This document shows positions 7,047-64,000 of a stretch of DNA of 64,000 nucleotides, in pieces. The stretch comes from Ulota crispa (taxonomy: Eukaryota > Streptophyta > Bryopsida > Orthotrichales > Orthotrichaceae): positions 9,922,501 through 9,986,500 of the forward strand of contig OY987246.1 of NCBI GenBank assembly GCA_963920765.1, in the 5' to 3' direction. The notes under the pieces were generated by a model. That model did no database searches. It was not told the DNA's origin and saw nothing but the letters and a program-made list of their open reading frames with translations. The position numbers were made by a program, and so were the translations under genes. How positions within the stretch are numbered: position 1 is the first letter of the stretch; each line of letters opens with the position of its first letter.

Positions 7047-7050
7047 TTAA

Positions 7051-7280
7051 CCCTTAAGCGCCCCAGCAACAAGATCCTGTCATTGGAGCCCACAACTTTA
7101 TCTCATTTCTTCTCTTAATTCGTATAGTAAAAACAGTCATATCTGGTCCCCATCAGTACAGAAGGGAGTTCTTTTTCAAATCCTATGGTCACTTTTTTTG
7201 AATGTAGTTTTCCAAGCTATGCTGACCATTAAACCCCCCATTTTCTCCTGAATCCAAAAATAAATCTGGGCGCTCAGAGG
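7051..7280. mobile_element. TTAA-flanked TIR element, 230 bp (TTAA group, copy A)
   Basis: TTAA lies on both sides (7047-7050 and 7281-7284). The left end reads CCCTTAAGCGCCCCAG and the right end, reverse-complemented, CCTCTGAGCGCCCAGA. There is no coding capacity. Flank and end type match piggyBac-like elements; that assignment is inferred from the ends only. Confidence 0.7.
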
Positions 7281-7440
7281 TTAATAGAAAAGAAACTCAT
7301 AAAATGGAAAAAAACTCCAAGACATATAATCACTCAAAGTAACTAGATTCCACTATCTCCTTACTTTAGAGCTACAAAAACCTTGCCCATATCAATAAAA
7401 CATAAAGTTACACATCACCCAACTTGTTCCTTGTAGAGTA

Positions 7441-8338
7441 CCTGGCAACCACAAACCGTCCCCCATTCTACCAGCCAATTTCTCTTAACAATGTTATTGA
7501 GTTAATTAGCATTCTATTAGCATTCCATTCACATTCTCCTATCTTGCAATTTGTATATTCAATGAGTGTCTTGAATCAATGAAGCATATCAAGATTCAAC
7601 CGCAAATAGTCAAAATCCAATTTTTGGTAAATAGTTTTGTGTCAAAATGAAGATTTTACAAGAGAATTGATTGAAAATGATTGGTGATAAATTTTTGAGA
7701 TTTGATTGCATGTGTATGTAGGAACATCTACATGCACATCCTCTATGCTAAAAACATCCATTGAGTAACAAAAATTTAATTTTCATAGGATTCATTGTGA
7801 CATGGGATATGCCAAAGTTTTGTAATATAGAAATAATAATTTTTTAACTAGCTTTTCATCATGTGAACATAACACCATGTTCAAAAGTAGAAATGTAGTC
7901 ACAATAAATGAGTGAAGCAGCCAAATTTGATAATCATAGAGAAATATGTACTTTACAAAATTTTAGCATATCCCATGTTACAATGAATCCTTTGAAAATT
8001 AAATTTTTGTTACTCAATGGATGTTTTTAGCATAGAAGGTGCACATGTACATGTTTCCTACATACACATGCAATCAAATCTCAAAAATTTGTCACCAATC
8101 ATTTTCAATCAATTCTCTTGTAAAATCTTCATTTTGACACAAAATTATTTACCAAAAATTGGATTTTGACTATTTGCGGTTGAATCTTGATATGCTTCAT
8201 TGATTCAAGACACTCATTGAATATACAAATTGCAAAATAGGAGAATGTGAATGGAATGCTAATAGAATGCTAATTCACTCAATAACATTGTTAAGAAAAA
8301 TTGGCTGGTAGAATGGGGGACGGTTTGTGGTTGCTTCG
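7441..8338. mobile_element. Long palindromic (foldback) element, about 900 bp
   Basis: Two arms of about 390 bp (7441-7828 and 7950-8338) are inverted copies with few mismatches, separated by a loop of about 120 bp. The left arm starts CCTGGCAACCACAAACCGTC and the right arm ends with the complement of GCAACCACAAACCGTC. TA occurs at both outer borders (7439-7440, 8339-8340), consistent with a TA target duplication, though the outermost 4-5 bases of the arms differ. If transcribed through, the RNA would form a very long hairpin. Confidence 0.8.
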
Positions 8339-8491
8339 TACTTTACACTGCAAGACATGGGAACTACCAAATCCCATCTGCTATCTAAGCCGCTCCCTTC
8401 AATTGCCCAAATACATTCTTCTTCCAATTGTTGAAAATCTAAAAAATTCTTCGTATTCCTCGTAGAGAGTAGAGTAGAGTAGGCGCTTTAA

Positions 8492-9407
8492 CCCCTACAA
8501 GACCATTGTCCCTATAGAGGACAAATGGGATTTTGGGCAGGTACCTACAGCCTCAATTTTTGTCCTAATTTTTTGAAACTTTTTTTGAAAATAGAAAAAC
8601 ACATTAGATTTTGGGGAATCTAATTTTTATTCCAATTGATGACAAGGAGCAAAAGTTATGCCCAAATAAGCACAAATTTGGGGACTAGGGGCAGCAAAAA
8701 AAATTCTTATAAAAACTTGAAAAAAAAATTATTTATTTTCTTATAGATTATATCTTTGTCTATATCTGAAGCTTTAATTCATTGCATTTGGACTAGTTAT
8801 GAGAAAGTAATGGACAATCTTGTGTTTTGGACAACTCAAGCATCTTCTTGAAAAATTAACTTATAAACTTCATTTTTGAATGCAAGTTTAACATTTTTTC
8901 AAAAAAAATTGGTGGAGAGGGTGAAGTTTGCTCTCTAGAAGAATCTCACCATTGGGATTATTGCGTTTCAATTCCATTGCAAGGTTATTAGCAATTTAAG
9001 TTTTTGTTCAATCTCATACCTTCTTCTACCTAATATTTTTTTAAAGAATGAAAATTAATTGTTCTTTTTTTAAAAAATTCCCAAGATTCCCAACTCAACT
9101 TCCCACCATGCAAAAATAGAATTCCAAACTCAATGGTGAAAAAATTTTAAGTTAAAAATGTTCAAAGTTAAAAAATCTAATCAAGCAAGGTGCAAAAAAA
9201 GCTTTTTTACACTTTAAATGCATATATCTTCCAATCTGTGCAGTCAAAGTTCTAGAGTTTTGTATGACATATTCTTATAGTAGTCTAGCAAAAGATCCTA
9301 CGATCAAATATGTAAAATGCTTGATTTTCAAAAAAGTTTACTCTTTGCCATAGAGGTGGCAATTTTGAGTGTCTTTTGACAAAACAAAGGCCATGGTCCT
9401 TTAGGAG
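8492..9407. mobile_element. TTAA-flanked TIR element, 916 bp (TTAA group, copy I)
   Basis: TTAA borders are at 8488-8491 and 9408-9411. The left end is CCCCTACAAGACCATTGTCC and the right end, reverse-complemented, CTCCTAAAGGACCATGGCC. The body aligns along its whole length, inverted, with 63005-63926: for example the ends, a TCAAAAGACACTCAAAA block and a CATTTAAAGTGTA block are shared. No transposase reading frame is present in either copy. Confidence 0.85.
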
Positions 9408-9411
9408 TTAA

Positions 9412-10790
9412 GGAACAACAAGCTTATAAGAATTTTTTGTTGAAATAGCAACTCCGTTTACACTACAATAGCAGACCAAAATTTGAGCTCAGAATGCCTC
9501 TTTTATCTACTTTCACACCTCCAAGCACCCCTTTGACCATATTGGGCTCTTTGGACGCTTCGGGGTTAATGTTGTTTAATTATGTAATTGCACACATATT
9601 TCCCATTAAAGGTGATAATAAAGCAAACAAATTTCAGTAGTACCCAAGCATAAATATTTCCATATGAACAGAATGTCATTTTTTCTTGTACAAATGACTT
9701 TTGATTGGAATGCAAATCACAAGGACACTGTACTTAAGCCGAACAAATTTGTTGTACCAATCTTACTCACACACAATAGCTTGCTAGGAAACGTACTATA
9801 CAAAAACTTTTCATGTGCCAAGAATACACACAAATATTGTAAAAATCAAGCAAGTACAGAGCAAAAGGCTTTTATTGTGTAGCATTGGTTACCTATAGAA
9901 GTAAGGGACGGTTAGGGAATGTGAAATTGTGAGGAGGAATCCATGATTTTTGAGCCATGAGCCTATATTTATTTATGACAATATTAAATTTCACCTATGA
10001 ATGTGTACGTAGGGTCTTATAATTGTGTACTATAAATTTTAATTTCTTGAAGAACTTGCTAATTTTTTAAGGAAATCATTGATTTTGAGCTCAAAATTGA
10101 TTCTTGTAGACAACATCTTGGCTCACTGATGAGGGGCTTACCATTTTACACTCACAAAATAGGGTAGTTTGGCACTACACAATACATACCAAGTTTTACA
10201 TTCCAAGTCATTACATTTTGTTTACATGACAACATTTTTGGAAGATTTGACAACAAAGAGGGTGGGACACTGAAGATTTTTGTCAAATATATTGCTAAAC
10301 CTAAATCTTACCAAAAAAATTGTGTAATTTGTTCATGTCTTTTTATAGTACTCATTTTATCACTTAAAAATCCTATGAAGAGAGGATTTTGCATTGAGGT
10401 GAAACTTACAAAGATGAGATGTGGGATGTTGTGTGAATTGCCCTTCATGTACCTACTCAATCTTCTTCAAGGTAGCTCTTGTGAAAGCAAATCCTCCTGT
10501 CCTTTGATCCAAAGCCAAGAACATGCACATAGTAATATCTAAGATTACTGTTTGTGCGGTTTTTACTAAAAAGTAGCATAGTTTTTATGTAGAAGAATGT
10601 GTAAAGGAATGTTTGGTCATATGTTCTTCTATTTTCTATGGGTGAAATTGCACAATTACTCCACAATCTTGAGATGGTACAGTTCTACTTGGATGAATGT
10701 GGACCAATATTCACAAAGAAATAAAAATTTATCCATATTTTACAAAATTAATAAGCTTCCTAACTGTAGCAAGGATCACTTAAGGTAGGC
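9412..10790. other. Intergenic region without recognised genes
   Basis: This is AT-rich sequence with only short open frames and no recognisable domains or repeats beyond the flanking elements. Confidence 0.6.
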
Positions 10791-10792
10791 GC

Positions 10793-11178
10793 ACCCATAA
10801 GCGTGGAAATAAGGGTTTTGGAGTAGGTAAAACAATTGGCTAACTTTGAAAAAAATATTGTAAGTTAGAAAGTGGAAACCAAAAATATTGGCATCAATTT
10901 CAAGGTTACTACTATAAGCATTTGTTCACAAAGATTTTTCAAAGTCCAAAATCATTGAAATTGTAGGAACTATGTGTAAGACATGCTAAAAACAAGGCTT
11001 GTTGGTTCTTAAAGAGTGAGATGGATACTCAAAATCTCATGCTAGTCACCCACTACCCTCACATCATCACCAATAACCATCACTCAGTCACCCACAACCA
11101 TTTGCTTTTTTATTGATTAGCCCCTGCTAGTGCTAGGTGACGGCCACGAGGACACAACGCTTATGGATGCTGCTACCT
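10793..11178. mobile_element. TA-flanked TIR element, 386 bp (AGGTRGG family)
   Basis: TA is present at both borders (10791-10792, 11179-11180). The left end AGGTAGGCGCACCCATAAGC pairs with the right end, which reads AGGTAGCAGCATCCATAAGC when reverse-complemented. It shares these ends with elements at 43945-44257 and 51042-51445. It is non-coding. The TA target site points to a Tc1/mariner-type mechanism by analogy. Confidence 0.75.
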
Positions 11179-11180
11179 TA

Positions 11181-12533
11181 CAACACTGCCAAAATTACAT
11201 GAAATATAGGAAAAAACCTAGTAAAAGAGTAACTAAAGATCACGTCCACAACAAGTACAATTTCACGGTTACTCTATCAATTCACTAATATTCTAAGCAT
11301 CAAAAATAGAATAGGATGTCACAAAACACTACAAATTGTCACACAACACTAATACTGACATGAAATGATAGAAGAGATGGGTTGAAGAAATGCAACATCA
11401 ATGACATTCAACGCTCTTCATTAACATGAAAAAATTACACATGAGGTTTCCTCTTGTACTGGTCCACCAATCTCACTAAACTTTTCCTGCAAAAGATGAA
11501 AAGAACACAAATTGTAAATATTTAGCAGCTTTACTAAACCAGGATTACCCTATTCAGAAACCTTAAATTTTAAAATAAATAAAAAGCTATAAAATGAAAT
11601 GAAAACAGTAAGACTATTAAAAGACAATGCCTAGAAAACAAGCGAAATCCATTTAAAAAACTTTAAAAACAATTAAGTTCAACAAGCATAATAGGTGAAG
11701 AGGCTACACTCTTATATAATCCTTATAAAGCATTCATAGCGGAGAGAGCATTGAAACAAATGCAAGTACTCTTTGCCCACAAGTAGATTATTCATAAAAA
11801 TACTGAGGGAAAAACAATAGTTTTTACATAAATGTCAATGACACTTTGCTTTACTATAATATGCTATCACTTACAATTCCATGTCCCGGTTAAACAAACC
11901 ATGTTAATTTCATTACACAAAGTACGTAGTCACCTTAACAAACTCCCTATTGCCTAATCAAAAAGCTCTCTTTTAGAGCATTACACATGATCTCCTTCAA
12001 AACTTAGAACCGTAAAGACACAAAGTTGTATTTATAGAGAACAAAAGAAATTCTTTCTACATATTAATGGGCCTTCACAAGCTACAAATGATATATCTTA
12101 CTCTTACTAGACACTGATATTTTTTATGCTATTGCTTAATTCAACCCTTGATTACACAAACAAGGCTAGTAAAGCAAATAAAATGATAATAAAATGGTAC
12201 CAAAATAGTATTAAGAGCTAAAAAAGGGATGATTAGACATTAGAAGAGGTCTTCTAACTTTCTTGAAGTTGCTTTTTTGATGGAAATCATATGAGAGGAT
12301 TTAGAGTTGGATAATCCATGGCTTTGATGTAAGACTCAAAAGCCATGTGCTATCTTTAGTGATACTATTCATTACAAACATTGATGCACAACATGCTTAC
12401 TAATAGTTCAATTTCACCTAGAATTGATTAGAATGTAGAGCTAGACATTGAAAGATAGTAATGAAAGAAATAAATTTTATAGTATCACAATCAAATTTCC
12501 TTGAATTCAAACTTCTTATGGCTTGCTCTTACC
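11181..12533. other. Intergenic region, nothing recognised
   Basis: AT-rich sequence with no gene, array or clear inverted repeat seen. Confidence 0.55.
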
Positions 12534-13460
12534 TTAGCCTTTGCCCTTGCCCTTGCCCTTGCCTTTTGACGTAGGCTTTGGCATAGCCTTGCTCTTCTTT
12601 TTACTAGCAAATGCAGATGATATTGTTCCACGTTCTAGCATTGTGGGAGGTTCTTCTTCATTATTGTTGTCTTCCAAAATTCTTTTCTTGATTCGGTCTT
12701 GCATTTCTCTGGTTCAAAGAGGATGTAGAAGTCTCCACTTTCCCATGCGCTTTGCTTTGCACTCTTCTTTCCATAAGGTCACATTCTCCCACAACTTCTT
12801 TGCATAATGGTGATCATTAGCCTGAAGTAGGTGAAGAAGGTGGGTTGCCCTCTAGTAGTGATAACTCTCCCAATCTTCATCTACACAACCAATTTAACAA
12901 AAATCAAATTTTAAGAATGAAATGAAAATAATTCACATTACCAATATGCAAAAATACAAATTCAAGCATAGGAAGTAAACATATGAAACAACTTAAATTG
13001 CATTGAACAAATCCAAAAACAAGAAAGAAACATAAAGAAATAAATAATTACCTTGAAAATAAGATATAAGAGTTTCTGCTCTAGATTTCTCCAATTCATC
13101 AGTTGTAGTGCAATGAATGTATCCTTCCAAGCCATGCACAATGTAGGAGACAAAAAAATTTGAAGAATTTAATAGAGCAGGTACAAAAAACTTGTAGTTA
13201 GCAAAACGGAAAATCTTCATGTCATCAAAGAATCCACTTTCCATAGCTTTCACTAATGGAGAAGTTTCCACTTCTTTTTCCATGAAAGTGGGAGGAGGAA
13301 TCAATGCCCTCTCTTCCTCAAGTTTGGAATCAACGCCATCTTCTATCCGTGCTTTAGCGTTTGCCTCTGCGTTTCTTTCATTTTCTTTTCCACTTCTAGC
13401 CTTCCTTGCTGCCTTTGCACTTTCATCACGTTTCCAAACCCTCTTTGTTTTTGGAGCCAT
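12534..13460 (-). pseudogene. Two-exon pseudogene, lysine-rich protein of unknown family
   Basis: Exon 1 (13460-13052) starts M-A-P-K-T-K-R and holds a basic/acidic N-terminus followed by a globular part (F-F-D-D-M-K-I-F-R-F-A-N-Y-K-F-F-V-P). It ends at a GTAATT donor in phase 1. Exon 2 (12880-12534) begins after a TTGTGTAG acceptor, in phase, and ends in a lysine-glycine run (K-G repeated, from GGCAAG hexamers). The joined frame would be 251 codons but carries two in-frame stops in exon 2: a TAG nine codons past the junction codon and a TGA about 45 codons further. The sequence between and after the stops keeps its coding character (K-K-L-W-E-N-V-T-L-W-K-E-E-C). I do not recognise the family; its repeat-rich setting makes a transposon origin possible. 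Confidence 0.6.
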
Positions 13461-14893
13461 GATGTATTGAACAAAACCTAAAAATCCCACAAATGCAACA
13501 TGAATTTATAAGCAAAAAAAAATTGCTCAAAGTACTTTCAAAATTACAATGTTTTCAAAAGTTAAAACCCAACATCCAACATTAACTAAATTCTAAAAGC
13601 CTTGATTTCCAAGATAAATTTTTTTTATTATTTGAAATAGTATACTTTTACATTAAAACATCATCTGCTCCTAGATAGTAAAACAAGCAATTCTTGAAGT
13701 AAAACTTCTATACATTACCCAAGAAGATGCTTGAGCCAAGGAAAGCTACAATCAAACAATGCAAAATTCACTTAATACAACTTGAGAGATGATGATTTGA
13801 CAAATAGAGGTCAATTAGGAAATCAATATACTAAACAAGTTTACTACATTGTTTGCAAATCAATTGATATCTCATACCCATGGCCGACAACAAAGGCTCT
13901 ATTGATCTATCGATAAGCATATTCTAATCAACTTGGTGCTGTGCTAGTTTTATTTGTTGAGTTGTTGGATTCATGATTGATGCATTTTGAAAACTATGTA
14001 GTCCTAAATGTAGCAACTCTAAAAAGATCCACTTCCAGCGTCACATCCGAGGTTTTTTTTTTTTTTTAAAATGCGGAGAATAGATCTGACCTTCATGACT
14101 TCAGCTTACACTAAACCCTTAGCTCCTCAAATTGACTAAAAAAGCCGTGACCTCCGCATCAAACATAGCCAACCAAGCATGTCTCTCCACAACTTAGATG
14201 AAGTGCAATCTAAAACAACCTCCTGGGATTGAGATTTATAACACAACCGCATCCATCTTTGAGCAAGAGAAGAGGAAACTTATGCAAGAGAGAAGAGGAA
14301 ACGAAACTTACGTGAGAGAAAATATGAGCCAGGCAAACTGGCGCTTCATTTTGCCGCAATGAAGGCAGAGCGACGAGGGCGAAGGCAACAAATTTGGAGC
14401 GGCAATGGTGAAATAAACCCCATGCTCAAAATTGCTGGAGCTCCAATACCTGGACTAGGCAGAGGTCACCAAGGTTCTCAAGGGGTGGGCTGAAGAAGGA
14501 GGGGCAAAAAAATGATGAGGGCGGGCAGAAGAATGTCGGGCAAGAGGGGCAGGAGGCATTTTACAAATTTTGTACGAGACTTAGGGCATCCTCAGTCCGG
14601 CTGGGTTAACACACCTCTACCGAATACTTTCACAGTGGGGGCCAGTGTTTTAACAATTATCAGGATCCAATGCAACCACCATGTATCCCGTCAAAATGGA
14701 GGGGTCGCCAAAATCTTGGGCATACGTGCTAGTTTCAGAGGCCTTGCTGGACCCCTCCAAGCAGCTCGCTACTTGTGAAGTTAACCCAAATTGGTGGCAG
14801 CATGTGCGGAAGGGCTAAAATTATAGAAATGACAAAGAGCATCACGTATAAAGCACATGAATGAAGTTCATGAGAAACTACTTGTAACTGCCT
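13461..14893. other. Intergenic region upstream of the pseudogene
   Basis: No gene was recognised. It contains a T-run near 14053-14068 and moderately GC-rich sequence at 14280-14780 without a convincing reading frame. Confidence 0.5.
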
Positions 14894-14897
14894 TTAA

Positions 14898-15139
14898 CCC
14901 TTGAGCGCCCCAGAGGAAGTATATTTCCTTTAGAAAATTTGAAAATAGGTACTTAAGTCATGCTAGTACGATGTACTAAAACTAAGGTAAGGTGGTACAA
15001 GGGTGACATGGAGTGGGTTACTTAGGTTCATAGTAATTATGATTGGTTTCACATGAATTATCTTAGTTTTGTAAAAACCAAAGGCTTGTGAATGTGAGTA
15101 GGTCTGCCTAAACTGGATTTTGAGCTGGACGCTCAGAGG
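14898..15139. mobile_element. TTAA-flanked TIR element, 242 bp (TTAA group, copy B)
   Basis: TTAA borders are at 14894-14897 and 15140-15143. The left end is CCCTTGAGCGCCCCAGAGG and the right end, reverse-complemented, CCTCTGAGCGTCCAGCTC. The ends are nearly those of copy A (7051-7280) while the interiors do not visibly align. It sits about 430 bp upstream of the Yae1-type start codon. Confidence 0.75.
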
Positions 15140-15567
15140 TTAAGGTTCTTATTACCGGTAGCATTGAATCCCATGGACCGCTACCTCGCTCATGTGGGTG
15201 AAGGTCCCTTGAACCAGGCCTCTTGGAGGGCTCATATGCCTGGTATGGACTCAGGGTGCCCTTAGTGCCGAGGCCGGGCACTTGTGTCGCTGCAGACTCC
15301 GAGCCGAACGACGCTCCGTCTCTTACATTCGCCCATCATGCCGTTGTTGCTCGCTTGCTCAGATTTACACGATCGTCGTCTCTCCCACTGGGGATATTTT
15401 CCGCTTTTTTCTTTCAGTTTCACCAAGCGAGGGGCAGCATATGCATATAACCACGCACCATCGCTACCCTTCACAGTGCAGCAATGACCCGTAAACGTTG
15501 ACAGAGAGAGCTCACGATCGTTGAATTTTCTCCTACTCTCGAACCTCGTAACCGGCTGCAACCGACC

Positions 15568-29519: not shown

Positions 29520-29528
29520 TTTTGGAAT

Positions 29529-29937
29529 GGGAATTGATATGCGTACCACACCTTCTCGACTATCCCACCACACTCAGAGGTAAATTTTAGATTTCTATCA
29601 TCAGAAAGTTGAATCTGAGAATTTGGAATTTAGATTTGGATTAAGAGACCATGATTTTGTCTAAATCACAAAAAAAAAATTCATTGAACAACACCCAATG
29701 CAAAAGCTTAGCTTGGGGGAAAAATATTATTTTTACTTTTGTTTATAAAAAAGATAAGCTTTTTAATTGGGTGTTGTTCAATTAGAATTTTTTTAATGAT
29801 TCTAAACAAAATCACAGTCTCTATGTCCAAATCTGAATTCCAAATTCTCAAATTCAACTATTTGATGGTAGAAATCTAAAATTTACCCCAGGGTGTGGTG
29901 GGATAGTCAAGAAGGTGTGGTATGCAAATCAATTCCC
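29529..29937. mobile_element. Long-TIR element with perfect 9-bp target duplication, 409 bp
   Basis: The identical nonamer TTTTGGAAT occurs at 29520-29528 and 29938-29946. Between them the sequence is two inverted arms of about 185 bp with scattered mismatches (left start GGGAATTGATATGCGTACCA, right start on the other strand GGGAATTGATTTGCATACCA) and a short centre. A 9-bp duplication with long TIRs is the pattern of Mutator-like non-autonomous elements. Confidence 0.85.
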
Positions 29938-30114
29938 TTTTGGAATATCTGCTCGTATATTTGTACAAATGATATGGGGTTAGAAATTGTCATGGATTGG
30001 AGATAATATGGAACTTTCCATTATCACCAAACTTCTTAAAAATACAGAGACATTGATGCTCTACAAAAGTTGTGTTGCTTAGTCATTTGTAAAGATAAAA
30101 GGTGGTTTTCACTA

Positions 30115-38588: not shown

Positions 38589-38836
38589 CCCTTGAACGCC
38601 TGTCGGGCCTCTGCTATACTGGACCGTATCTTAGCAATACGGTGAGGGGTCGAATTTCGCACAGGCGAGGTTGGGTTTTAGTCCGACTTTTCAACCAATC
38701 CGATTGCCTCCGTTAACCCCTGAGCGCGCAAGCGGACCAAAACGGTCCGCAATCCTGATTTGTTTTGAAAAGCTAGGCGCCCAGGGGTTAAATACCAAAA
38801 TATATGGCCACAGAGGGTCTTCCTGGCGTTCAAGGT
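38589..38836. mobile_element. TTAA-flanked TIR element, 248 bp, inside a minisatellite (TTAA group, copy C)
   Basis: TTAA borders are at 38585-38588 and 38837-38840. The left end is CCCTTGAACGCCTGTCGG; the right end, reverse-complemented, is ACCTTGAACGCCAGGAAG. Minisatellite sequence continues on both sides, which supports these borders independently of the TIRs. It contains copy D. Confidence 0.85.
38717..38787. mobile_element. TTAA-flanked mini-element, 71 bp, nested in copy C (TTAA group, copy D)
   Basis: TTAA borders are at 38713-38716 and 38788-38791. The left end is CCCCTGAGCGCGCAAGCG; the right end, reverse-complemented, is CCCCTGGGCGCCTAGC. An internal GCGGACC/GGTCCGC inverted repeat follows the left end. 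At 71 bp it is little more than two TIRs. Confidence 0.75.
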
Positions 38837-42607: not shown

Positions 42608-42841
42608 CCCCTAAACGACAAGGCAGCCCTTTGTGACCAGTACAATATTGGATATTTTTCTTATATTTGGAGTGCATCCACACCTTTATTACATTTGAGA
42701 TCAACAAAGAAATTAGAATATAAATCAATGCTGTTCTAGGGAGGCAACCAAGACCCCAAATTAAAACTTTTTGTCAGTAACAAATGCTATTTATACAGTA
42801 GTGTACATACTATGTATTATGGTAGCCTTGTCCTTTAAGTG
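42608..42841. mobile_element. TTAA-flanked TIR element, 234 bp (TTAA group, copy E)
   Basis: TTAA borders are at 42604-42607 and 42842-42845. The left end is CCCCTAAACGACAAGGCAGC; the right end, reverse-complemented, is CACTTAAAGGACAAGGCTAC. It is non-coding. Confidence 0.7.
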
Positions 42842-44865: not shown

Positions 44866-45243
44866 TTAGAGAGCAGCCACCGAGTTGCAGTGACCGGCGC
44901 CGTCTTGACAGCCATCACCGCAGTAGTCTGCTCCTCTCCCGCACATGCCGTCTTTGCTGCAACAAGCCCCGAACAAGCACACGGCGTCGCCTGCTTGGCG
45001 CCCGCATTCTGCACTCGCTGCTGCTGCTGCTGGTGCGTCTTTGTTGCAGCGACCGGCGCCGTCCTGGCAGCCATCGCCACAGTAATCTGCTCCTCTGCCG
45101 CACATTCCATCCTTGCTGCAACACGCTCCGAATAAACATACGGCGTCGCCTGCTTGGTGCCCACACTCCGCCCCATAAACAGAGCACACCGTCGCCAGCG
45201 ACAGCGCTACGACCAGAAGTATAGTACTCGACCTGGAGTCCAT
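44866..45243 (-). CDS. Secreted protein with two hevein-like (chitin-binding type 1) domains, 125 aa
   Basis: Hevein domains bind chitin oligomers and occur in defence proteins and lectins. Residues 1-24 are a signal peptide (hydrophobic L-L-V-V-A-L-S-L-A, small residues before the first C). Two eight-cysteine domains follow (about 26-67 and 79-119), nearly identical, joined by an A-rich linker ([10 protein letters not shown]). Cysteine spacing is C-x8-C-x4-C-C-x5-C-x6-C-x3-C-x6-C. The binding-loop Ser and the Tyr before the sixth Cys are kept, but the two loop aromatics of hevein (W21, W23 or equivalents) are Asp and Met in both domains. Chitin affinity may be weak or altered. There is no catalytic domain; the frame ends seven residues after the last domain. 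No intron is apparent. Confidence 0.85.
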
Positions 45244-45318
45244 TGCTAGCTAGTTGATAAAAATGGCCAAGAAACGATATCGATGTGAGCCTGGAAGTTG
45301 AAGTGAGACAGAGGGATG

Positions 45319-45334
45319 TATATAATTATATATT
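45319..45334 (-). promoter_or_regulatory. TATA-box candidate for the hevein-domain gene
   Basis: On the minus strand the sequence reads AATATATAATTATATA, 76-91 bases before the start codon. That leaves a leader of about 45-60 nt, a normal distance for a plant TATA box. Confidence 0.5.
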
Positions 45335-48491: not shown

Positions 48492-48526
48492 TGGAGATGT
48501 GCACGAAGAGTTGGCGCACATCTCCA
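48492..48526. other. Perfect 11-bp hairpin with 13-base loop
   Basis: TGGAGATGTGC at 48492-48502 pairs perfectly with GCACATCTCCA at 48516-48526. It lies about 620 bases beyond the amine oxidase stop codon. No T or A run follows and no function is assigned. Confidence 0.6.
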
Positions 48527-49149
48527 TGGAATGGAACAAGAAGACTTTCAATTGAACACTTGTTAACGCAATCGCATTTTTTTCAAATACATCAGCAGTC
48601 ACAAACGCAATACATTGTTTTCAAAAACATCAGTTGCCACAGACGCAATACATGCTCCCAAGCCAACTCTCTCGCTCCCATTGTTTCATTTCCATACGAA
48701 GCTCAACATCGCTCTAAAGCAGCAGCCCTCAAACACCAACCTGCTTTAAGTCAGAAGATCTCCCAAAACTCATTTACCAACTCACAGAAAGAAAACACCA
48801 GTAATAAGCAAAAACAGATTCCTTTTCAAGATAAGAGAAGGGATTCCAATTCACTCGCTTAAAGTTACATCATATTCTCACTTTGTACAGGAACATGCAC
48901 CCATGACGCTTTGAAGGTGCACGACAAGCTGATAAAAAAAACTCGCAGCATTTCGGCTATGGGAGGGCTCCCCTCCACCCCGACCTATTGTTGTTCAAAA
49001 TATCTTTCTACCAATGGCTACATCGTCATGGGGTCTCAATAAACTAGTTGTAATGGCTTGTGGTTTGTCCAAATCCACCCAATCTTGTAAAAAGAGTGGA
49101 GTGCCGTGGTAGCTGTTGATCTACATCCATCGTACATTTGGCGAGCCTT

Positions 49150-52100
49150 CTATAACTTCGACAGCAGCGTCGGTTGTAGAGAATTTGTTGGTCCAACCCC
49201 TTTGACAGGCGCTTCCTTGATGCCCACTTGCTCCTCCGTCGCTGGCTCGCTTGGTGGCACGTCCACGGCCGGTGAACAGTTGAAAAATCCATGAGGCTGT
49301 GGACGCACAAGCAGCACAACAATGCGTCTAGTGTCAATCCAAAACAAACTCTAAAAAGAATACAGAAAAAAAAATACCGAAAAAAAAGAAGAAATACAGT
49401 AAAAGATTTAACACTAAAAGCACGCAGAGTGATTTTAGGGTTTTACCAGAAGAGTGAAGCCTACATGCTCCACTGGCATTACAGGCCAATCCTCCAGACG
49501 AGGCACATGGGTTACACCAAAAACGTACCTGCAGACAACACCGCACTTCTTTTCATTAAAACTTATTCAAAAGAGGTCAAAAGTTACAGGAAGAGTCTTA
49601 AGGACGTGCAGAAGGCAAGAGTTTATAGACCACACAGATATTAATAGGGAGAATTTCATGGATATCCCTGAAGTTTGCGATATTTACGAAGATACCCCTG
49701 CTTTTTCAGAAATTGCACAAATATCCTTGGACCATAATTTTTAGGCATTAACTTGTTGTTCTCGTACTTCCTTCATGACCAATGTTGAAGAAGGGAATGT
49801 AATGAAACAAAAAAGAAGCAACGTGCGCACGAAGGAAGAAGGGAAGTGCCATGCACAACAAAACAAATGCCTAAAGTTTTTGGTCCAAGGGTAGAGTTGT
49901 GTAATTTCTGAAAAAGCTGGGGTATCTATGTAAATATTGCAAACGTCAGGGATATCCATGAAATTTTCCCATATTAATAAGCCAATTGTAGAGAGGACAG
50001 ATCCAGGGACCCAGTTGGGCTTATGAAACGCAAACCCTAAACTTGCTCAAGAAAGAAGTTGGAGTGTTACCACAGGACAATGTCTGTCTCCTCGAGCTTG
50101 CGATCCTGCTTCGCCCAAGTCGGAAGGCCTTCACCAACTCGAGGATTTTGGTTGGGAAACTCCCCACCTGGAAAGCACTCATCACGTTTATACTCCGTCA
50201 CCCAAAGATTATGATTCAAAAACGCAGCTCGCCTTAAAAACTTCGCATCAGGCCCTGCTAGTGGCAGACAATTCCGGCCTGGCATCAGCTTGTACCCCGT
50301 CAACTGGCCGGTTCGGTTAAACGTCCTGGTGTTGCGTACCTGCACAGCAGAAGATGTCAGTCCATCACGTGCACAAATATCCAGACAACAAATCATTGAA
50401 AAAGCAACAAAACGTACCAACAGAACGAAAAAAATCATGCTCAAGTTTGAAAAAAAAATTGAGTTACTAGAATCAAGTTTTGGCATTTTTCTGTTTGAGC
50501 TTGGGTTTTAACGAAAGAAAAGGTAGGGCATCTGGTCTTACTATCCAATGACGATGCGATAGTGCATTGCAATCACGCTGTGCCTGCAGCTCCGAGCGCA
50601 GAAGTGTCTCCTCCGCATAAAAGGCATTATTGTGTGGGTTTTCAGGTCCCGGTTCTTCAACCTTCATGTTTACTTCTACAACCTGTGTCACCACCGATTA
50701 GTTACACACCATCTACACCTTCTCTAGATCTGAAACTGGCTGAGGACGGTTTTTACATAAAAATTCCAAGAGATTCCAGAGAAGAGTACCTGGTTCAATC
50801 CTTCACCAGGATTACAGTCCACGGCCATGTCGAGGCGTGCAACAAAGAAGTGCTGGTGTACAGGGGCATATAGCCCAGGGGCGATAACAGTTCCCTGCCT
50901 ACGATTCTCATCAGCCTTCAATGCCCCTAGACTCAAGATACCCGTTAGCTTCACCTCCGCTTCAATATGTCCGTCCTAACCCATGCACAGAGCTTGGTCA
51001 GCAAAAACCAACACGTGCAAGCCAGCGTCAATGAGCACATAAGTTAGACATACCCATTCCCGAGCGGCTCCCAATTCCACACCCTACATTTGAGGTGTTC
51101 ACCATACACTCTTGAACCCAAAGTGAAGCAGTGAACACTACTTGCACAAGCAAAGCGAATCCTGCCACATGTTGGTTGCTAAGCTGGTTTGGGAAGATTG
51201 GGATTGGAACCGTTGTAGCAACACATCCAAGCAGTTTCAGGGCTAGTCTATTATAGTGGCTTTTAGGGTCCTATGAGCTGTAACTTTGCACTTTAATATA
51301 AAATATTCTACAGTACTTTTTCCCACAAAAATGATGTTCCATGATAGCTTGTTGAAAGGCTAATCCTACGGATTTTTTACCTGAATTTTCCGAGACCTAG
51401 CGGTACCCCCAAACCTTAAACGCTCGGGTATGGGTCTGTCTACCTTAGATAGTGGAAAGTGGACCATTCAAGTACCTGATAGAAGTGCCAGAAAAAACCG
51501 TATTCGTAATTGGCGACAGTGCAGAAGAAGGAGACCGTGAGTCTGCGTGAACGGCGCACTTCAGTCATACCCGTGCGCCAGTCCTGGTGCTTCCACAGAA
51601 TGCCATGATCTTCCTCATGCATGCAAACACAATTCTCTATTGTCTCCACACCTCCAAGGAAATTTGTGAAGTGCGCGTCGAAGTACTTGATGTGCCCCAG
51701 ACAGTCACAACCCTGGGCAGAGAGATCACCACACAAGTCAGGGAATCAATCCATGGAATGGAACTGCAATGCAAATATGGAGAGGCAAAACAGTGGTACA
51801 GTGGTGCCTGGATAAGGTCAGCACTTCGGGCTAGAAAAAAATGTTAACCGTATCCAAACATTGATCACAAACAAGCACTCCATTTGCGTTACTTCCCCTA
51901 GTTCTGGTGGTTGCAATTGTGGAGGTGCTTTCCCACCCTTCTTTTTGGTACATTAACCAAAAGCTTTCTTTAAACTGATGAGTAAAAATGGGCATTGATG
52001 AAAAGTAAACATTGATCATATGCAAGCATTTGACCTTAACCAAGCTCACTATACACGCTTTTGGTAAAAGGGGAGTGGGACTGTGATCTTATCCAATATT

Positions 52101-55385: not shown

Positions 55386-56440
55386 GGTTTCGACAGCGCA
55401 CCTCCCGCGGCCTTCTTCTCCTTCCCCAGTCCTGCTCCGCTATCAGACATACAGCACACTCCGCCCGTCTCCTTGCCTCCTTCCTTGCAATCCCAACCCC
55501 TTCTCACCCCGCAAATCGTCGTCGTCGCACCTCACAAAGTCTCTCCAAGCGAGCGAGCTCTTCACACAATTCTCACGAACACCACGCTCCGCAAAAATGC
55601 ACCGGACGAGCAAAAACACCGCAATCTGTCGCAAAAAAAACACAGAAACGCACACGGAATCATCAATCAGTCGTCGCGTGGGGCTTGGTAGCTTGTGGGA
55701 TGTTCGTGGAGGCGAAGCGGCATGGGCGAGGCGGATGAGAGACTGGAGCAAAGTAAATGGCTTTGGCTCTTGTGTGTCCCGTGGTGATTGATACAATCAG
55801 AGCAGACCACGAATGAAGCAGAAGAAGAAGCAGAGGCCCAAATCGCACCCGCGCCGCCAAGCCCGGGTCGGCCGGCTCCGTCCCGCGGGCCCGCGGGTCC
55901 CCCCGGGCCCGCTCCTCGGCCCACCCGCGTTTTTCACTCTCTGGCTAACTCCGGCTAACTCCCTTTGAATGATTTTTCTATACAAAATATCAACTTGGCA
56001 TGCGAGAGCAAAACACTGTGAGCCCAGCTGTGTACAGGACGGCTCCTTGTACTGCAGCACATACGGGACCAGGGTGGAAAAGCTGTGATTTTCCTCACTA
56101 GCTAGAAAAAGTAATAGAGTTTAGAGCATCATTCTCCTCCACCACACCGGCAGGAGTTCATCCGGGGGAAACACCGCAAACTCTAGTTTCTTGCAATTTC
56201 TCTCACCTTTGGAGCTTGGCAGTTAAGAGATTAGCCGATAGTTTGAAAGAGTACATACTCAGATTCTATATCATGGCTTATTCAATTGAAAGAAAAGTAG
56301 CATTTGCAAGAGTTGTCATGCTTGGGGAAAATGGAAACTTTGCAATTGTAATGCAAGAAGGAATTGTTTGACGGGTTTGAGCATCAACAGCCTCCTTTCA
56401 TTCAAAAGTGTTTCTCACGTGGCAAAACACCAAACAAGTG
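55386..56440. other. Amine oxidase upstream region with a GC-rich block
   Basis: This is the 5' side of the amine oxidase gene. A strongly GC-rich stretch at about 55840-55925 contains overlapping GGGCCCGCGG palindromes and stands out from the AT-rich surroundings; it may be part of the promoter. Overlapping frames in this region and across exon 1 on the plus strand are products of the GC content. Confidence 0.5.
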
Positions 56441-56452
56441 GAGATGCTCTTG

Positions 56453-56821
56453 GAGCGTCTGCACCCTTGTACGCTAAACATGCCCTCAATAGCAATTGGC
56501 GTGCCTGCTCCGCTTGACACGCAGATGCCGTATGCTAGCCTTGGCTTGCTCAATTGTAGCTTAATCATTAAAATGTTTAAGGTTTGATGAATTGTTAATG
56601 CACCCAAATCCAAGACTATGGAAATTTTGTTGATTTGTCAACACAAGAGGCTCATGATTGAAGCTCAACACTTATCCTTTGCAATAAACAAGTATGTTTT
56701 GTACCAGGTTGAACATAAGGGTGGGACATTAGGGATTTGAGCGAGCTCATGATCGGGAATGTGCCCTGTACACCTGCTTTCGAGAGCTCTAGGTGGCGTG
56801 CAAAAGGGTGCAGATGCTCTT
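56453..56821. mobile_element. Candidate TIR element, about 370 bp
   Basis: The left end GGAGCGTCTGCACCCTTGTA and the right end, reverse-complemented GAGCATCTGCACCCTTTTGC, share a run TCTGCACCCTT followed by variants of TGCACGC. No target duplication was resolved, and a repeated AGATGCTCTT at both edges blurs the borders. Confidence 0.45.
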
Positions 56822-57698
56822 AGAAACTCACCATCTGGTTGGTTTTTTTATAAATTCACTATTTATATTTAGAGACCTCTAAAACCTGGGAAGTGGATAA
56901 AACTGATAATACTGACCAACTCCAAAATAAAGTGAGGTGGTGGATTCTTATTTTACTTTTTCTTTTAACCCTTGACCCTAGCACCCACAAACAAGCACGT
57001 ATGTGCAGCAGTACATGGAGCCGTACAGGGACTAGTGCCGTGCAAGGGAAATCTGAACTTAGATTGTGGACGAATGATGAGCCACTTGAAGTTTTGCATG
57101 ATCCCAGGCTGACAAGTTAGTTGCCTGATGCCAAAGTGGCCACTGGCCAGTGCTTGGCTGCTTGCCCATTTGCGAATTGCTTTGCCTTGCTTGCATCATC
57201 AAAACTGTTGGTAAGCTTACAGGCAAGCGAAACACAGCAAAAGTGGTTGCTGCATGCTGCACTGGGATTGATGCAAGGCGGATCTCACCGGGCCTGCGCT
57301 GATTTGTGATTCCTTCTCAGATCGTTGTCTCGTCTGTGGTAGTGTGGTCCCTGCTTTCATTGGTTTTTAGTTTTTACACGACACTGAGGTGGCCTCCATG
57401 TTGATGAGTCTGGCTCTTTGCCAGTTACTGCATACTTTCCATGTGTCTAGAAAGGTAGCGGAGAACCAACATGGACGGTTACCCAACGCTTGGTAAGCAT
57501 TTCACCTGTCACTTTCTTTGTATGTATGAAAGAATACATGTGAAAGAGTAAAAGTATTGTTTAATAGTGGTTAAACTAGTGAAGGAGAAGGATTGTCTGG
57601 TAGTAGCTAAATAAGTGGAGTAGGATTGTCTAGTAGTACAGTAAGTGAAGGAGTAGGATTATCTGGTAAGGTAGGAGGTCCATAAACCATCCCTTTAA

Positions 57699-58813
57699 CT
57701 CTTAACCCCTGAGCGCCTAGCCCATTTTCATCAAAATTGGGCTTTTTGGAGACCTACAATTTTGATGCATCATATCTTAATCAATTGAGTCATTCACAAA
57801 AAGTGACCATTGAAAACGGTGGAACACCTACTTGGAAAATAGCTTGCAAGTTTTGGGAACAATTGACCATGGGAGATGGAAGATTGTAACATTTGATCAA
57901 GTAACACATGATGGCAAAATCTCACTTTTTGGCAGATAGTTGCTATTTATTGATTTTTACAAAATTTTGTAAGCCCTTGATTCATCTCAAATTTTGTGGG
58001 TAGCAAGATTAGATTTGAGTGCACACATTCGCAAATTATTGAAGATTGTACTTCTTTGAATGCTAAGCTTTAGGGCTTCAAACTGCAATTGCACAAAATA
58101 CAAAGACTTGCAAAATTGGTGAGGATTACCTTGAAAATGGTCTAGAACATGTTTGAACGCTTGCTAATGATTTCCTTGCTACCACAAAATACATTGCACG
58201 GAAGCTGGCAAGGGATATTGACCAATTGTGACTTCTAAGTGCTACTTGCCACCTAGCTTTGTATTGTGTTCCATGCATTCAAGGCTCCGAAGGTAATTGT
58301 ACAACACTTGACTTATCTTGTCATTACTCCACTTGCATGGACCACTTGAGTACCTAGTTTATAGCAAAGTCAAAAATTAGATCTAGTCCTTCAAATAGGC
58401 TTGTGAAATCTTGAGAGGCCACATTTGGGCCTCTAGAGTGCTCACGGGTTAAAGGACAGCTAGGTGGCTGTGGCCTACCCACACAATATTTATATTGCAG
58501 CTTCAATAGTGATTTGGTTGATGGGCACCAATAGTATTGCTTCTAAAAGTTTCAAAAGTCAATGGTGCACGCCGACCTCATGAAAATTGCAATAAGGGCA
58601 GCTTGGGACCCAACATTGTGATTTTAAATTTTCTCACAATTTGGGTTACCTAAAAATATGAGTATATTTGATAAGATTGTTATTTGCCTTCTATGATGAA
58701 TAATGTGTTTATGGTCACTTAGGAAAAAAACAAATGAAAAACGACTTTTTTAGTTGTACAGATTGTTTTTTCAAGGCTAGAAGACGAAAAATGTCCGCAT
58801 GGTCGTTTAGGGC
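57699..58813. mobile_element. TTAA-flanked TIR element, about 365 bp once its nested insertion is discounted (TTAA group, copy G)
   Basis: The outer TTAA is at 57695-57698 and 58814-58817. The left end CTC-TTAA is followed by the nested copy F (57706-58448), after which the left TIR continues AGGACAGC from 58453. The rejoined left end matches the right end (reverse-complemented GCCCTAAACGACCATG) at 9 of 12 positions. The nested reading explains why neither outer end has a closer partner. Confidence 0.6.
57706..58448. mobile_element. TTAA-flanked TIR element, 743 bp, nested in copy G (TTAA group, copy F)
   Basis: TTAA borders are at 57702-57705 and 58449-58452. The left end is CCCCTGAGCGCCTAGCCC; the right end, reverse-complemented, is CCCGTGAGCACTCTAG. 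It is non-coding; the interior is AT-rich. Confidence 0.7.
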
Positions 58814-59549
58814 TTAACCTATCTCATCAATGGTAGTAATAGATACTCCCATGAACATGTCATTTGTTCTTAGATAGGAGTTGCATTTAGAACATGGTCA
58901 ATTTATGGACCTCCCAATACCTTAGCAGTTAAACAAGTATTTGTATAAGGAGAGGTTATCCCTTTAGCAGTGGCTTGGTTTTTGAGTAAGGTACATACTC
59001 AAACTTTTGGAAGGTAGTTTTTTGTGATACAAATTTGCCTCCATAACTTGTAGTTTAGAATCAACAATTCTTAAACATGTTGGTGTTGCTATTGATTCCT
59101 TAACTCTTAAATGACACACCCAATTTTAGGGTTTGGTGTTCACAAAATCTTTCTATGTGCAAGAGTATCCACTTAATTGTGGTAGCATAGGCAAGAATTT
59201 TTTAATTCAACTCAATGTGAGTCATTCATTGGGCTTGTTTGCAGCCTCAATTTCTTCTATGTTTATTTGCAATACGTGTAGGATATGTTTGAAGGATCAT
59301 TTGATTTTTGCCCAAATCTATGCTTGATTCGTTGTGTGATTATTATTTTTATTGTAGTTGATTGTGCATGCATGCTCAACCTCTGTAATTGCTTCTTTCT
59401 CGATGTCTGATTCTTGAGGCTGCACTACCCGGATATAAAATGGGTAAAGTGGGTTAATAAAGACCGGTACGTGGGGCTTTTACCCAAGTTGGGTGCAGGC
59501 GTTATTGTTGGAAAGGGCTCATGGACAATACCTTTTTGATGATATATTA

Positions 59550-59706
59550 GGGGGTTTCATTTATGTCAGAAAAACAATGAACGAATTAGTTTTTGTTCAT
59601 GAGTGAATACAATATGATGATTTCCATGAACAAGCATATTCACCAGTGAGCAAAAATTTGTTCACGACCATTTGTTCATAGTTTTTTTGAGATAAATGAA
59701 ACCTCC
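59550..59706. mobile_element. TA-flanked hairpin element, 157 bp
   Basis: TA borders are at 59548-59549 and 59707-59708. The left end is GGGGGTTTCATTTATGTCAG; the right end, reverse-complemented, is GGAGGTTTCATTTATCTCAA. Both continue through AAAAAC and ATGAAC, so almost the whole element folds on itself. Confidence 0.75.
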
Positions 59707-60124
59707 TATTATGTGTATCGTGTAGAGCTACAGTGTGATTATCAGTACTAGTTGCTATAAGTTACAAATTTTGGGTTATCTTCAATTGTAAATCATAAAT
59801 TATGAACCGTATTCAAGTATAGAATTTGGCCAACTTTGTAGGCAACAAAATTCTTACTTTATAAACATAAAAGATGCTCTTAGATCATTCCAAAAAGTTA
59901 GGCATTTCGTCTCACTAGGTGGAATAAGCATAATTGCATTATTTATCCTCTTTTATCTATTATTTGTTTAGTTGTACTTAGAAGTTTGCCCCCAATGTCA
60001 TCTAACGCACATTTAACAAATAAACAAAGTTCTTGACTATTATCTTTATCCAAATAACTCCTCATTCATTCAAAGTAATGCCGCTTGAATCTTCAAAACA
60101 AATTTTTGCTATGATGGAGTTAAT

Positions 60125-60235
60125 GAAACCAAGATAAGTTGTACATTTGTATGAAACCAAGATAAGTTGTACATTTGTATGAAACCAAGATAAGTTGTAC
60201 ATTTGTATGAAACTAAGATAAGTTCTATATTTGAT
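60125..60235. repeat. 28-bp tandem repeat, about 3.9 copies
   Basis: Units start at 60125, 60153, 60181 and 60209. The first three are identical (GAAACCAAGATAAGTTGTAC followed by ATTTGTAT); the fourth has three or more substitutions and is incomplete. Confidence 0.95.
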
Positions 60236-63004
60236 CAAAGACACATCAAAATAAATGAACTTCAAAAAGATTTGGATGGTTTGATAATATTATTTTAAGT
60301 TTATTTTGAAAACATTAAACAAGTTTTGGAGGCTAGCATGTCATTAAATCTTATTGTTTCTTAACCAAAATTTAGAATGACAATGGACAATCTTGTGGTG
60401 ATTAAATGCTTGGCATACATGGTAAAATAGTAAAAAAACAAACAAACACTATGGATGGAATCTAAGAAAATTTGGTCAATTGGGTATTATAGGTTTAGAT
60501 AGGAGAGTCCAATTTTTTTGTTGACATACTTACTACTCATGATTTGATGAAACCAAGTTTTCATAGTAAAAATTTGAAATTTTGATAGATGTGTTGTAAA
60601 TTTGGTCACCAAATTTGGATTTTTTTTATAATATAATAAATATGAGATTACAAGAGTTGTTGATAACTTTTTAAAGCCCTTAATCTTGTTCATAATGGAA
60701 GCTCTACTAGAATGTGTTGTTCAATAGTGTCTTCAACTTCTTCTAAATCAATTTCAAATCAATCTAATATTTTCATTAATGGCATGTTTTATTATAAATT
60801 ATTATCAATTTCAAGCATGATAGTCGATTAAGCAATTTTAGCATCCAAATCAAAAGTATAAAGGATTGGTTTCTAACTCAATATTAGGCATTTTTGGTGT
60901 TTAATTTAAAGTTAAAGTCAATTCAACATTATTAGAGTCCTGAGATAATAAGTTGCAGTCCTATCTTTATAATTTTCTCAAGCAATCAATAACTTGCCAA
61001 ATCTAAAACTAATTACATATTTAAAACACCTAGAAAAAGGAGCAAATTCTGTTAAAGTTTGACTTAAATGTAGTAAAGATAAGTGTTAGAAAAAAATCAT
61101 TTGAAAAAAGAACCAATTATGATTTACATGCTTTTTAAATCAATGCATGTTTGTTAACAATTTACCACTAGTATATTCTCAATCTATTCTCAATGTATTG
61201 TACAACAGGCTTGCTTGAGTTGAGACAATTTCAAGTTCTAAATGGCAATTAAAAACCACAAAGATGTTAATGATGTTAATAACAGCGGATAAATATGGCA
61301 CTCATTTGTGCAAAATTACACTTGACATAAATGAAATTTAAAAAATCTACTTTTCAAATTCTAATACGTTTTTTCCCCTTGAGCTGGCTTTTCAAATATG
61401 TAATCACTTTTGAATTTGATGAAGGATTGAATGCGTGGGAGGGGTTTTAAAAGGGACTACAACTTAATGTCAAGGACTCTAATAAGTCAACCTATAAACT
61501 TAAAACCAATAAACATATGTTTTTGTTTTTCATGATTTCAAAATGTTATAGTTGTTAAGGTAAAGATTCCATGGGAAATCTTCAAAATAGCAAGTGTTGC
61601 TCTTTGAGTAGCTTGTTGTTTCTTATGTTAATTTATTTATATTTATCTATATTATTAGAAATGCATACAATGAAACCAAAAACCATGAAATTCAAAAATA
61701 CTCTAGTAATGGAAAATTTAAGTTTCAAAACAACTAAAAAGTCAACCGAAGACAAAATTACATCAACTAGCAATAGAAGAAAATAATCTCCATAGGAGTT
61801 TGAGTTACAAACCTTCTATAGCCAACAACTAAATCAATTACAAACTCATGTAAATAAAATAAAACACAAACAAATAGCTCAATTTTTCCACAATAAAATA
61901 GGGACAAACTACAAAATTAGATCTCCCATAGTTTTGAGCTTTTTTTCATAATCTCCATTTTATACTAAAAATGCTCATTTATTTATGAAATATATTAGTA
62001 TCTTTCCTATTTTGGGTACTCTACTTAGAGGTTAATTTTCAACCAACCAACTTCAATCATCTTTTGCTTGTATGCTATATAAATTCAAATGTACTTATTA
62101 AACATCAATTATTCAATTAATCAATTTATTTATAAAAACACCATTGAAAAGACATGAAAATCGCAAACAATCGGTACAAAAGATAGGTAGAATAGTATTA
62201 AAGTGCTTATTAACTATATCCATCAAAACAACAGGGTTCATTTTGTTTAAACCTTCACATCAAAAACTAAAAAATAATGACAAGCAACGAGAACTTAAAT
62301 ATCAGCAGACCGTGCAAAGCTTACTTGATATACTTGTCTTAAATTTTGTTGAACAAAACAATTAGATTGGTTTTAAAAAACATAGTCTTCTACAGTTGTT
62401 AAAATTCCAAATTATGGTAATCAAAATATCCATGTCAATCCTAAATGCTTACCTAAGCCTAGTAATTATTTTCATGAAAGACAACTGGATACTCAATTTA
62501 TCAACATCAATTATAAACACTGTACAAATCATACGTAAGTTGGATGTAGTGTAAAAATTATTGGCTGTTGCATGATAAATATCAATAATAGAGATTTTCA
62601 AAATCATAAACGTTTATCATCTAAGACATGCATGATGTGGCACAAATTTCATCATAATAGAATAAACTTTGTTGTAGAAGTAACATGGTACAACATTAGA
62701 ATACATGCTTGCAAGTTTTGACAAGCAATTTTCCTCACGTATGGTTGTTGAGGGAAATTAGACAATATAATCAAATCAATTTATCAAGTAATTTTATCAT
62801 TTAACAAACATCATATTTTTTGTAATAAAATTTTCATAATACGTTGACTTTTATCCTAACTTTGAAATCCTCCAATACCACAAATAGAACATATGGTAAC
62901 AAATTACGTGTTATTCAAGACAATAAATGTTCTTAGTGTGTTTCAATGCAAGCATGCACATGAATGTGGATAAGGTTAGAAATTCCAAAATTCTACAATA
63001 TTAA

Positions 63005-63926
63005 CCCCTAAAGGACCATGGCCTTTATTTTGTCAAAAGACACTCAAAACTGCTACTTCTATGGCAAAAAGTAAAATAGTTTGAAAATTGGTCTTTTTGC
63101 ATATGTAACCGTAAGATCTTGTACTAGACTTGTATAAGAATGTGTTATTCAAAACTTAATAACTTTGACCGCACATATTGCAAGATATTTGCATTTAAAG
63201 TGTATAAAACAAGCATTTTTGCTCCTTGCACGATTAGATTATTTGACTTTGAACTTTTTTGACTTAAATTTTTTGCACCATGGAGTTTTGAGGTTTATTT
63301 TTTTATGGTGGAGAATTGAGTTGAGAGTCTTAGGAAAATTACCAAAACAAAACAAACTTATTTTAAATTCTTAAAAGAACATTAAATAGAAGAAGGTTTG
63401 AGATTGAACAATATCTTACATTGTTAATAACCTTGCAATGGAAGTGAATTACAACAATCACAATGGTGAGATTGTTCTAGCAAGCAATTTTGACCCTTTC
63501 CAAAAGTTTTTTTTGAAAAAATGTTAAATTTGCATTCAAAAATGAAGTTTATAAGTTAATTTTACAGAGCAGAACCACACCTACCTGCAAACTAAAACTT
63601 CTCATAACTTTCATCTCATCTATTAGAATTGAATGATTCAAAGCTCCCCACGTCTATATAAGTCTAAAGAACCTAATCTAGATTTTTATTCTAAAACAAT
63701 GAAATTTTTTAAGAAGTTTTTGGCTGCTAGGGGAGCAGCATTTTCTAGATTTTCATGCATAACATCTTCAATAAATGTTGGAATGAAGAAAAAATTACAT
63801 TCCCACGTAGATCTATGAATTTCTCACCTTCAATAAAAGTTTCAAAAAATTACACAAAGTAGTTTAGCCATAGGTACGTGCCCAAAATCCCATTTGTCCC
63901 TTGTAGGGACAACGGTCCTGTAGGGA
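63005..63926. mobile_element. TTAA-flanked TIR element, 922 bp (TTAA group, copy J)
   Basis: TTAA borders are at 63001-63004 and 63927-63930. The left end is CCCCTAAAGGACCATGGCC; the right end, reverse-complemented, is TCCCTACAGGACCGTTGTCC. It is the inverted relative of copy I at 8492-9407: similar length, collinear, clearly diverged by substitutions and small indels. Confidence 0.85.
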
Positions 63927-64000
63927 TTAATGATTATTTTAATGTTGGTGCAATTCTTGGAGTTGGAGTTTTGTGCAATTGGCTTATTGTGGGCTAATAA

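Follow-up and report, generated by a model that had tools for sequence, protein, structure and literature searches.

What kind of element is found, time after time, between two TTAA tetramers in a single stretch of moss DNA? The stretch in question, called the window here, covers 64 kb of the nuclear genome of Ulota crispa (C5:9922501-9986500; the assembly comprises 157 contigs and 274.8 Mb), and a preliminary description of its sequence had recognised nine TTAA-bounded elements in it and assigned them to the piggyBac superfamily. The analysis that followed indicates that the nine elements are almost certainly non-autonomous piggyBac-superfamily transposons, that is, miniature inverted-repeat transposable elements (MITEs), that they belong to several families and that they were probably moved by the transposase of larger copies. 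This conclusion follows from shared ends, TTAA borders, uninterrupted sites, nesting and the existence of transposase-bearing copies with the same end code.

The borders themselves turned out to be correct in every case: TTAA lies directly outside both ends of all nine elements, which together span about 3.9 kb or 6% of the window when each base is counted once from the coordinates. On the plus strand lie a multicopy MITE with GCGCC-type ends (7051-7280), a MITE with TGAGCGCC ends (14898-15139), another with TAAACGAC and TAAAGGAC ends (42608-42841), a non-autonomous member of a high-copy family with a CCCCTAAAGGACCATGG end (63005-63926) and two pairs of elements (38589-38836 with the 71-bp MITE 38717-38787, and 57699-58813 with 57706-58448); a further non-autonomous element, with a GGACCATGG-type end, lies on the minus strand (8492-9407). 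The members of each pair, counted as separate elements at the outset, are real, but have to be redescribed as nested, with 38589-38836 and 57699-58813 as the outer elements. The proposal that the ends share a theme beginning with CCC or CCCC holds for the left ends, eight of which start with CCC, but for just two of the nine right ends, so the code is a loose one. In eight elements the two ends are alike at 9-12 of 14 positions; in the ninth, 57699-58813, they match at just 6 of 14, because 57706-58448 sits in a TTAA within its left end. The terminal inverted repeats of piggyBac elements are given as 12-19 bp long with a CC[C/T]T motif in the accessible part of PMC2872659, and the window ends follow this pattern loosely, most of the right ends having drifted from an exact CCYT start.

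Could such borders arise by chance in an AT-rich window, so that the pieces are unrelated? The 64 kb contain 368 TTAA and the ends are short and variable, which gives this explanation its appeal. However, the strict TTAA-anchored end motif occurs six times in the window and in none of 100 first-order Markov resamples. A looser end score, which is partly circular as it was built from the same elements, reached at least 10 at 17 of 735 TTAA-anchored sites and at none of 735 when the bases just before TTAA were scored. Further, searches with 7051-7280, 63005-63926, 42608-42841 and 14898-15139 retrieved multicopy families that end at the borders. Together with the genome-wide counts and the uninterrupted sites presented below, by which it is refuted, these results leave chance with a negligible probability.

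A genome-wide scan of the ends, proposed in the preliminary description, bore out the association with TTAA. The pattern TTAACCCYTRARCGMC occurs 5,503 times (2,763 + 2,740), against 2 occurrences of the reversed pattern, and CCCYTRARCGMC alone occurs 6,613 times (3,317 + 3,296), against 142 for its reverse; these figures are numbers of ends, not of elements. TTAA thus directly precedes 83% of the CCCYTRARCGMC ends (5,503/6,613), compared with 2 of the 142 reversed controls. Likewise, TTAACCCYTWARSGACCATGG, taken from the 63005-63926 family, was found at 708 places (370 + 338) and its reverse at none. Family searches, in each of which 40 first-look candidates were scored, so that the numbers are lower bounds, listed at least 41 matches for 7051-7280 (of 1036 first-look candidates), 42 for 63005-63926 (of 7705), 43 for 42608-42841 (of 3052) and 40 for 14898-15139 (of 68). 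In the last family, 34 of 40 matches start no more than 6 bases from the left end and reach at least position 231 of 242. Of the nine elements, 8492-9407 and 63005-63926 belong to one family, lying in opposite orientation with 75% identity over 938 columns.

The best 30 of the matches listed for each of the 7051 and 63005 families, window copies included, were then fetched, a sample of 60 copies biased to close relatives. With one base of slack allowed in the scoring of TTAA flanks, 29 of 30 copies of the 7051 family were complete at both ends (22 with a left TTAA, 28 with a right TTAA and 22 with both), and so were 26 of 30 copies of the 63005 family (23 left, 23 right, 21 both). Most fetched copies therefore end at TTAA. 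The 12 full-length exceptions are mostly one letter off TTAA on one side (TTAG, TTGA, TCAA, TTAT and so on), and a few of them deviate by more than one letter or at both borders. In the copies listed, homology mostly stops at the border of the element or a few bases from it, and some matches end inside the element. The median pairwise Kimura two-parameter distance (435 pairs in each family) was 0.134 for the 7051 family and 0.108 for the 63005 family; these distances, to which no clock was applied, suggest that the amplification of both families is old.

If the elements had inserted into TTAA, related sequences lacking the insertion should be detectable, and empty sites had indeed been suggested as a check. 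The flanks of the 60 fetched copies and of the nine window elements were joined and the 69 resulting queries compared with the fetched and window sequences, and a spanning match had to cover 40 bases or more on either side with 74% identity or more and, for the best match, to have no more than one gap letter where the flanks meet. Spanning matches were obtained for 10 queries, which correspond to seven independent uninterrupted sites because L009, L010, L011 and the window element 7051-7280 have one flank in common. The sites exist, within the same genome, as unfilled paralogues rather than as products of excision, and the unfilled tetramer is exactly TTAA at one of the seven (L057/L045).

The nested elements provide the same kind of evidence. 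When 57706-58448 is removed from 57699-58813 and one TTAA is kept, the rejoined outer element aligns with L070:1098-1509 in 291 of 336 columns (39 of 43 in the left end, the terminal repeat that the insertion has split), with about 33 extra bases in L070 between the two aligned pieces. The interior of the inner element (57806-58130) matches the joined flanks of the insertion L066, so relatives of 57706-58448 serve as insertion targets themselves. In the other nest, full-length copies of 38589-38836 without the 71-bp insert occur at C1:24739786-24739976 (80%) and C8:6531133-6531320 (77%), both with 9 extra bases immediately before the TTAA relative to the window copy, and a partial insert-free copy occurs at C2:23469227. 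Another copy of this family (L092, C2:23094810-23095935) carries, at the TTAA that by eye corresponds to the insertion site of the 71-bp element, a TTAA-flanked GGACC-type element of 919 bp with TAAAGGACC-type ends. Matches to the flanks of 38589-38836 inside the window appear to be local low-complexity repeats and were discarded.

The count of nine left out a further element. This tenth element of the kind, at 6731-9565 (no strand assigned), has its TTAA-anchored right end at 9565 and hosts both 7051-7280 and 8492-9407. It is colinear with L033:626-1394, a copy of 769 bp with TTAA at both ends in which the sites of the two guests are uninterrupted; the window copy has lost its left TTAA. The same host repeat also contains, at 7432-8347, a near-perfect long palindrome with arms of 293 bp that are 97% complementary. 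L033 is uninterrupted at this position too, and the overlap points to an 8-bp duplication, now diverged, on either side of the palindrome, which is perhaps a foldback element.

A source of transposase for such elements would be larger copies encoding a DDE_Tnp_1_7 domain, which the preliminary description had recommended looking for, and these were found. A search with PF13843 (DDE_Tnp_1_7) gave at least 120 matches over the cut-off in the genome (116 of 528 first-look candidates were scored, and the total may be higher) and none in 14 control genomes. The open frame of L085 matches PF13843 at 8e-60, the solved piggyBac transposase 6x67 with an E value of 4e-20 and piggyBat 9c0f with 6e-17; the frame of L084 and a piece of L001 likewise match the solved piggyBac and piggyBat transposases. 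The piggyBac catalytic triad is given as D268/D346/D447 in the accessible text of PMC7351741, and the corresponding motifs in the moss frames read VDE.., DN[FY]F and GVD..DQ, the last with KWW after it. All three are present in L003 and L004 and one or two in the other copies; L084 has the first and third, and the second (CDNFS) by eye, and L085 has N at the third triad position. In L001, a Cys-rich stretch, seen by eye only, follows the domain and is a candidate for the C-terminal cysteine-rich zinc domain of piggyBac. Comparison of the sampled copies by tblastx grouped L001, L002 and L006, L005, L084 and L085, and L003, L004 and L008, L007 and L083 being less clear.

Two loci stand apart from the others. 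In L083 (2050-3741) about 267 bp, with GT...AG at the borders as in an intron (noted by eye), divide the piggyBac transposase frame, and convincing TTAA-anchored ends were not found in 4.7 kb; possibly, L083 is a spliced or host-used gene. L084 (1751-3169) holds an open piggyBac transposase frame of 472 amino acids, for which convincing TTAA-anchored ends were not found either, the examined parts of the 4.4-kb stretch having no TTAA outside the frame.

Do the transposase-bearing copies end like the window elements? In L001-L008, no end patterns were present in the 1.5 kb next to the transposase domain, because these elements are about 5 kb long (5.0-5.6 kb, approximately), and wider flanks revealed the ends. 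The ends were chosen among TTAA sites by their likeness to the end code and are read from the TTAA inward. L001 has CCCCTCATCGCC on the upstream side, at 2,521 bp from the domain, and CCCTTCATTGCC on the downstream side, at 1,361 bp; in L006 they are CCCTTGACCGCC, 2,521 bp upstream, and CCCTTCACCGCC, 1,442 bp downstream; and in L005, CCCTTTAGGGACC, 2,343 bp upstream, and CCCTTTAATGACCATGG, 2,098 bp downstream. Of the eight loci for which both flanks were fetched, these three therefore have clear paired TTAA-anchored ends. In each of two further loci, of which a part was fetched, one TTAA-anchored end was seen. The right end of L085 looks good; a convincing left end was not seen in 4.7 kb upstream.

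Some of these boundaries recur in other copies. An L001-type copy on C10 shares 90% identity with L001 along 355 bases at the left end and 96% along 173 bases at the right end, and these matches begin and end at TTAA, within one base. When the L005 right end was used as query, 39 other matches were listed, and six of them stopped at positions 305-307, the TTAA being at 302-305. Two of the six, at C1:20185758 and C2:2654623, are situated downstream of other PF13843 matches, at distances of about 2,103 and 2,150 bp; the sequences of their ends are TTAACCTGTTAACGATCATGG and TTAACCCTTTAACAACCGTGG, and that of a third, at C1:32726503, is TTAACCCTTTAAGGACCATGG. L069 and L070 also gave matches to 63005-63926 and 57699-58813; these fall within neighbouring MITEs, outside the transposase elements, and were rejected.

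Several observations weigh against reading the window elements as piggyBac MITEs served by these copies. The unfilled tetramer is one letter off TTAA at five of the seven uninterrupted sites and two letters off at another (L043/L021). Among the eight loci, the remaining five have weak ends (L008), one-sided or doubtful ends (L002, L003, L004) or none (L007), and both L001 and L006 have end-like TTAA sites further upstream that score better or equally well; since end-like TTAA sites are common here, one-sided ends may belong to neighbours. The left tetramer of the C10 copy is TTCA, one of the 39 matches to the L005 right end (C7:3237304, 268-382) crosses the boundary while 32 cover the flank only, and the left boundary of L006 was without a second copy in a search that gave L006 itself and 39 flank-only matches. 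Stops interrupt 110 of the 120 PF13843 matches, 10 being stop-free, and among the loci read there was no intact transposase copy that retained TTAA at both ends. Finally, the fetched transposase elements and the window MITEs have the same end code and no common interior. The window MITEs are thus not simple deletion copies of the fetched transposase elements.

The unlike interiors, together with the fact that TTAA duplications are common to the piggyBac, Sola3 and Kolobok superfamilies, invite the alternative that Sola3 or Kolobok made the MITEs and that the piggyBac transposases are coincidental. Against this, the end code is carried by the piggyBac-transposase copies themselves, as GACCATGG in the L005/L085 type and as the GCC type in L001 and L006, and coral piggyBac ends given in the accessible part of PMC2872659 are alike (CCCTTTAACGCCC, CCCTTAGAGACCTA). 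Another TTAA-targeting superfamily is therefore a very improbable source, and assignment to piggyBac is supported by the ends, the TTAA borders and the PF13843 copies with the same code.

Under the piggyBac assignment, a DDD transposase from the larger copies would bind the short inverted ends that start with CCC, excise the element and insert it into a TTAA target, which would be duplicated. The anatomy of the elements fits the known piggyBac mechanism, in which, according to the accessible part of PMC7351741, the transposase excises through TTAA hairpins and inserts into TTAA. Judging from the shared end code, the window MITEs may have been mobilised in trans by the transposase lineages described here, the GCC-type ends probably pairing with the L001/L006 group and the GACC-type ends with the L005/L085 group. 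Excision in this system is predicted to be seamless, and movement is probably largely over. A wider picture, which can be offered tentatively and is somewhat doubtful as a whole, is that this bryophyte genome has been host to a number of old lineages of piggyBac transposase at once, every one of which had an end code and large MITE families of its own, that piggyBac was a major class of DNA transposons here, and that L083 and L084 may have been kept as host genes.

Other features of the window include two long inverted repeats, at 29526-29940 (84% complementary) and 49647-49970 (91%), a minus-strand open frame at 44866-45249 with two cysteine-rich repeats that is hevein-like by eye, and a minus-strand reverse-transcriptase-like frame at 597-1220, by eye from a Gypsy-type element. 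Elsewhere in the genome, PF00504 has 56 matches, which mark chlorophyll a/b-binding protein genes of a green-lineage plant. When two long chains of entry 9vfj (521 and 439 bits) are set aside, the solved chains most similar to one of these proteins are 8htu and 7xqp (458 and 457 bits), of the moss Physcomitrium patens, followed by 8c29 (437 bits), of a seed plant.

The kind of element is known, and the main interest lies in the abundance and diversity of piggyBac in a land plant, of which this genome appears to be an unusually rich case. PiggyBac has been much studied as an animal transposon and a genome-engineering tool, and its status in land plants has been described inconsistently. Its supposed rarity there, mentioned in the preliminary description, is borne out only in part. 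The accessible part of PMC4093653 states that piggyBac is not in plants. Traces were counted in a fern (1,230 fragments at 0.00%; PMC6890710) and in a grass (one; PMC8319324). Further, the accessible parts of other sources list piggyBac in all taxonomic groups studied (PMC4438587), among plant superfamilies (PMC10794571) and among the MITE superfamilies of angiosperms (PMC10004981), and another describes it as isolated from insects, fungi and plants (PMC10813416). A partial search of the open-access literature, with most subscription papers outside it, turned up no description of a piggyBac native to a moss, and priority is not claimed; a Physcomitrella paper (PMC5505980) mentions piggyBac six times, and a paper on the moss Niphotrichum was set aside, as its text refers to 'expression piggybacking' and not to a transposon. 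With thousands of TTAA-anchored ends, more than 100 transposase matches, which form at least three groups in the sample read, and MITE families whose divergence has been measured, all in one plant genome, it can be asked whether piggyBac in plants was inherited or transferred and how hosts silence it.

Among the closest parallels is the coral system of CMITE and the Acropora elements AmiPB1-6, as described in the accessible part of PMC2872659. There, as here, TTAA is duplicated, short MITEs have CCC-starting ends that match those of transposase-bearing copies, elements insert into one another at TTAA, and both GCC and GACC end variants occur. CMITEs, however, are about 100 bp long with a conserved interior, whereas the window elements range from 71 to 922 bp with unlike interiors; in addition, the host here is a land plant and many more ends were counted. 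With piggyBac of Trichoplusia ni (6x67/6x68; PMC7351741, accessible part) and piggyBat of bats (9c0f), the moss system has in common the DDD core, the DNxF and GVDxxDQ motifs and the targeting of TTAA. The sequence relation to these two is remote (E values of 1e-24 to 7e-16), the moss elements are about 5.0-5.6 kb long and their copies are mostly broken. In plants, TTAA MITEs named Wuneng and Microuli come from rice. TTAA duplications are common to these and the moss elements (PMC2872659), and the PiggyBac label has likewise been given to MITEs of angiosperms (PMC10004981). For both of these plant groups, a link to a transposase is not given in the accessible parts of the sources, whereas in U. 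crispa piggyBac transposases and MITEs with the same end code are found in one genome.

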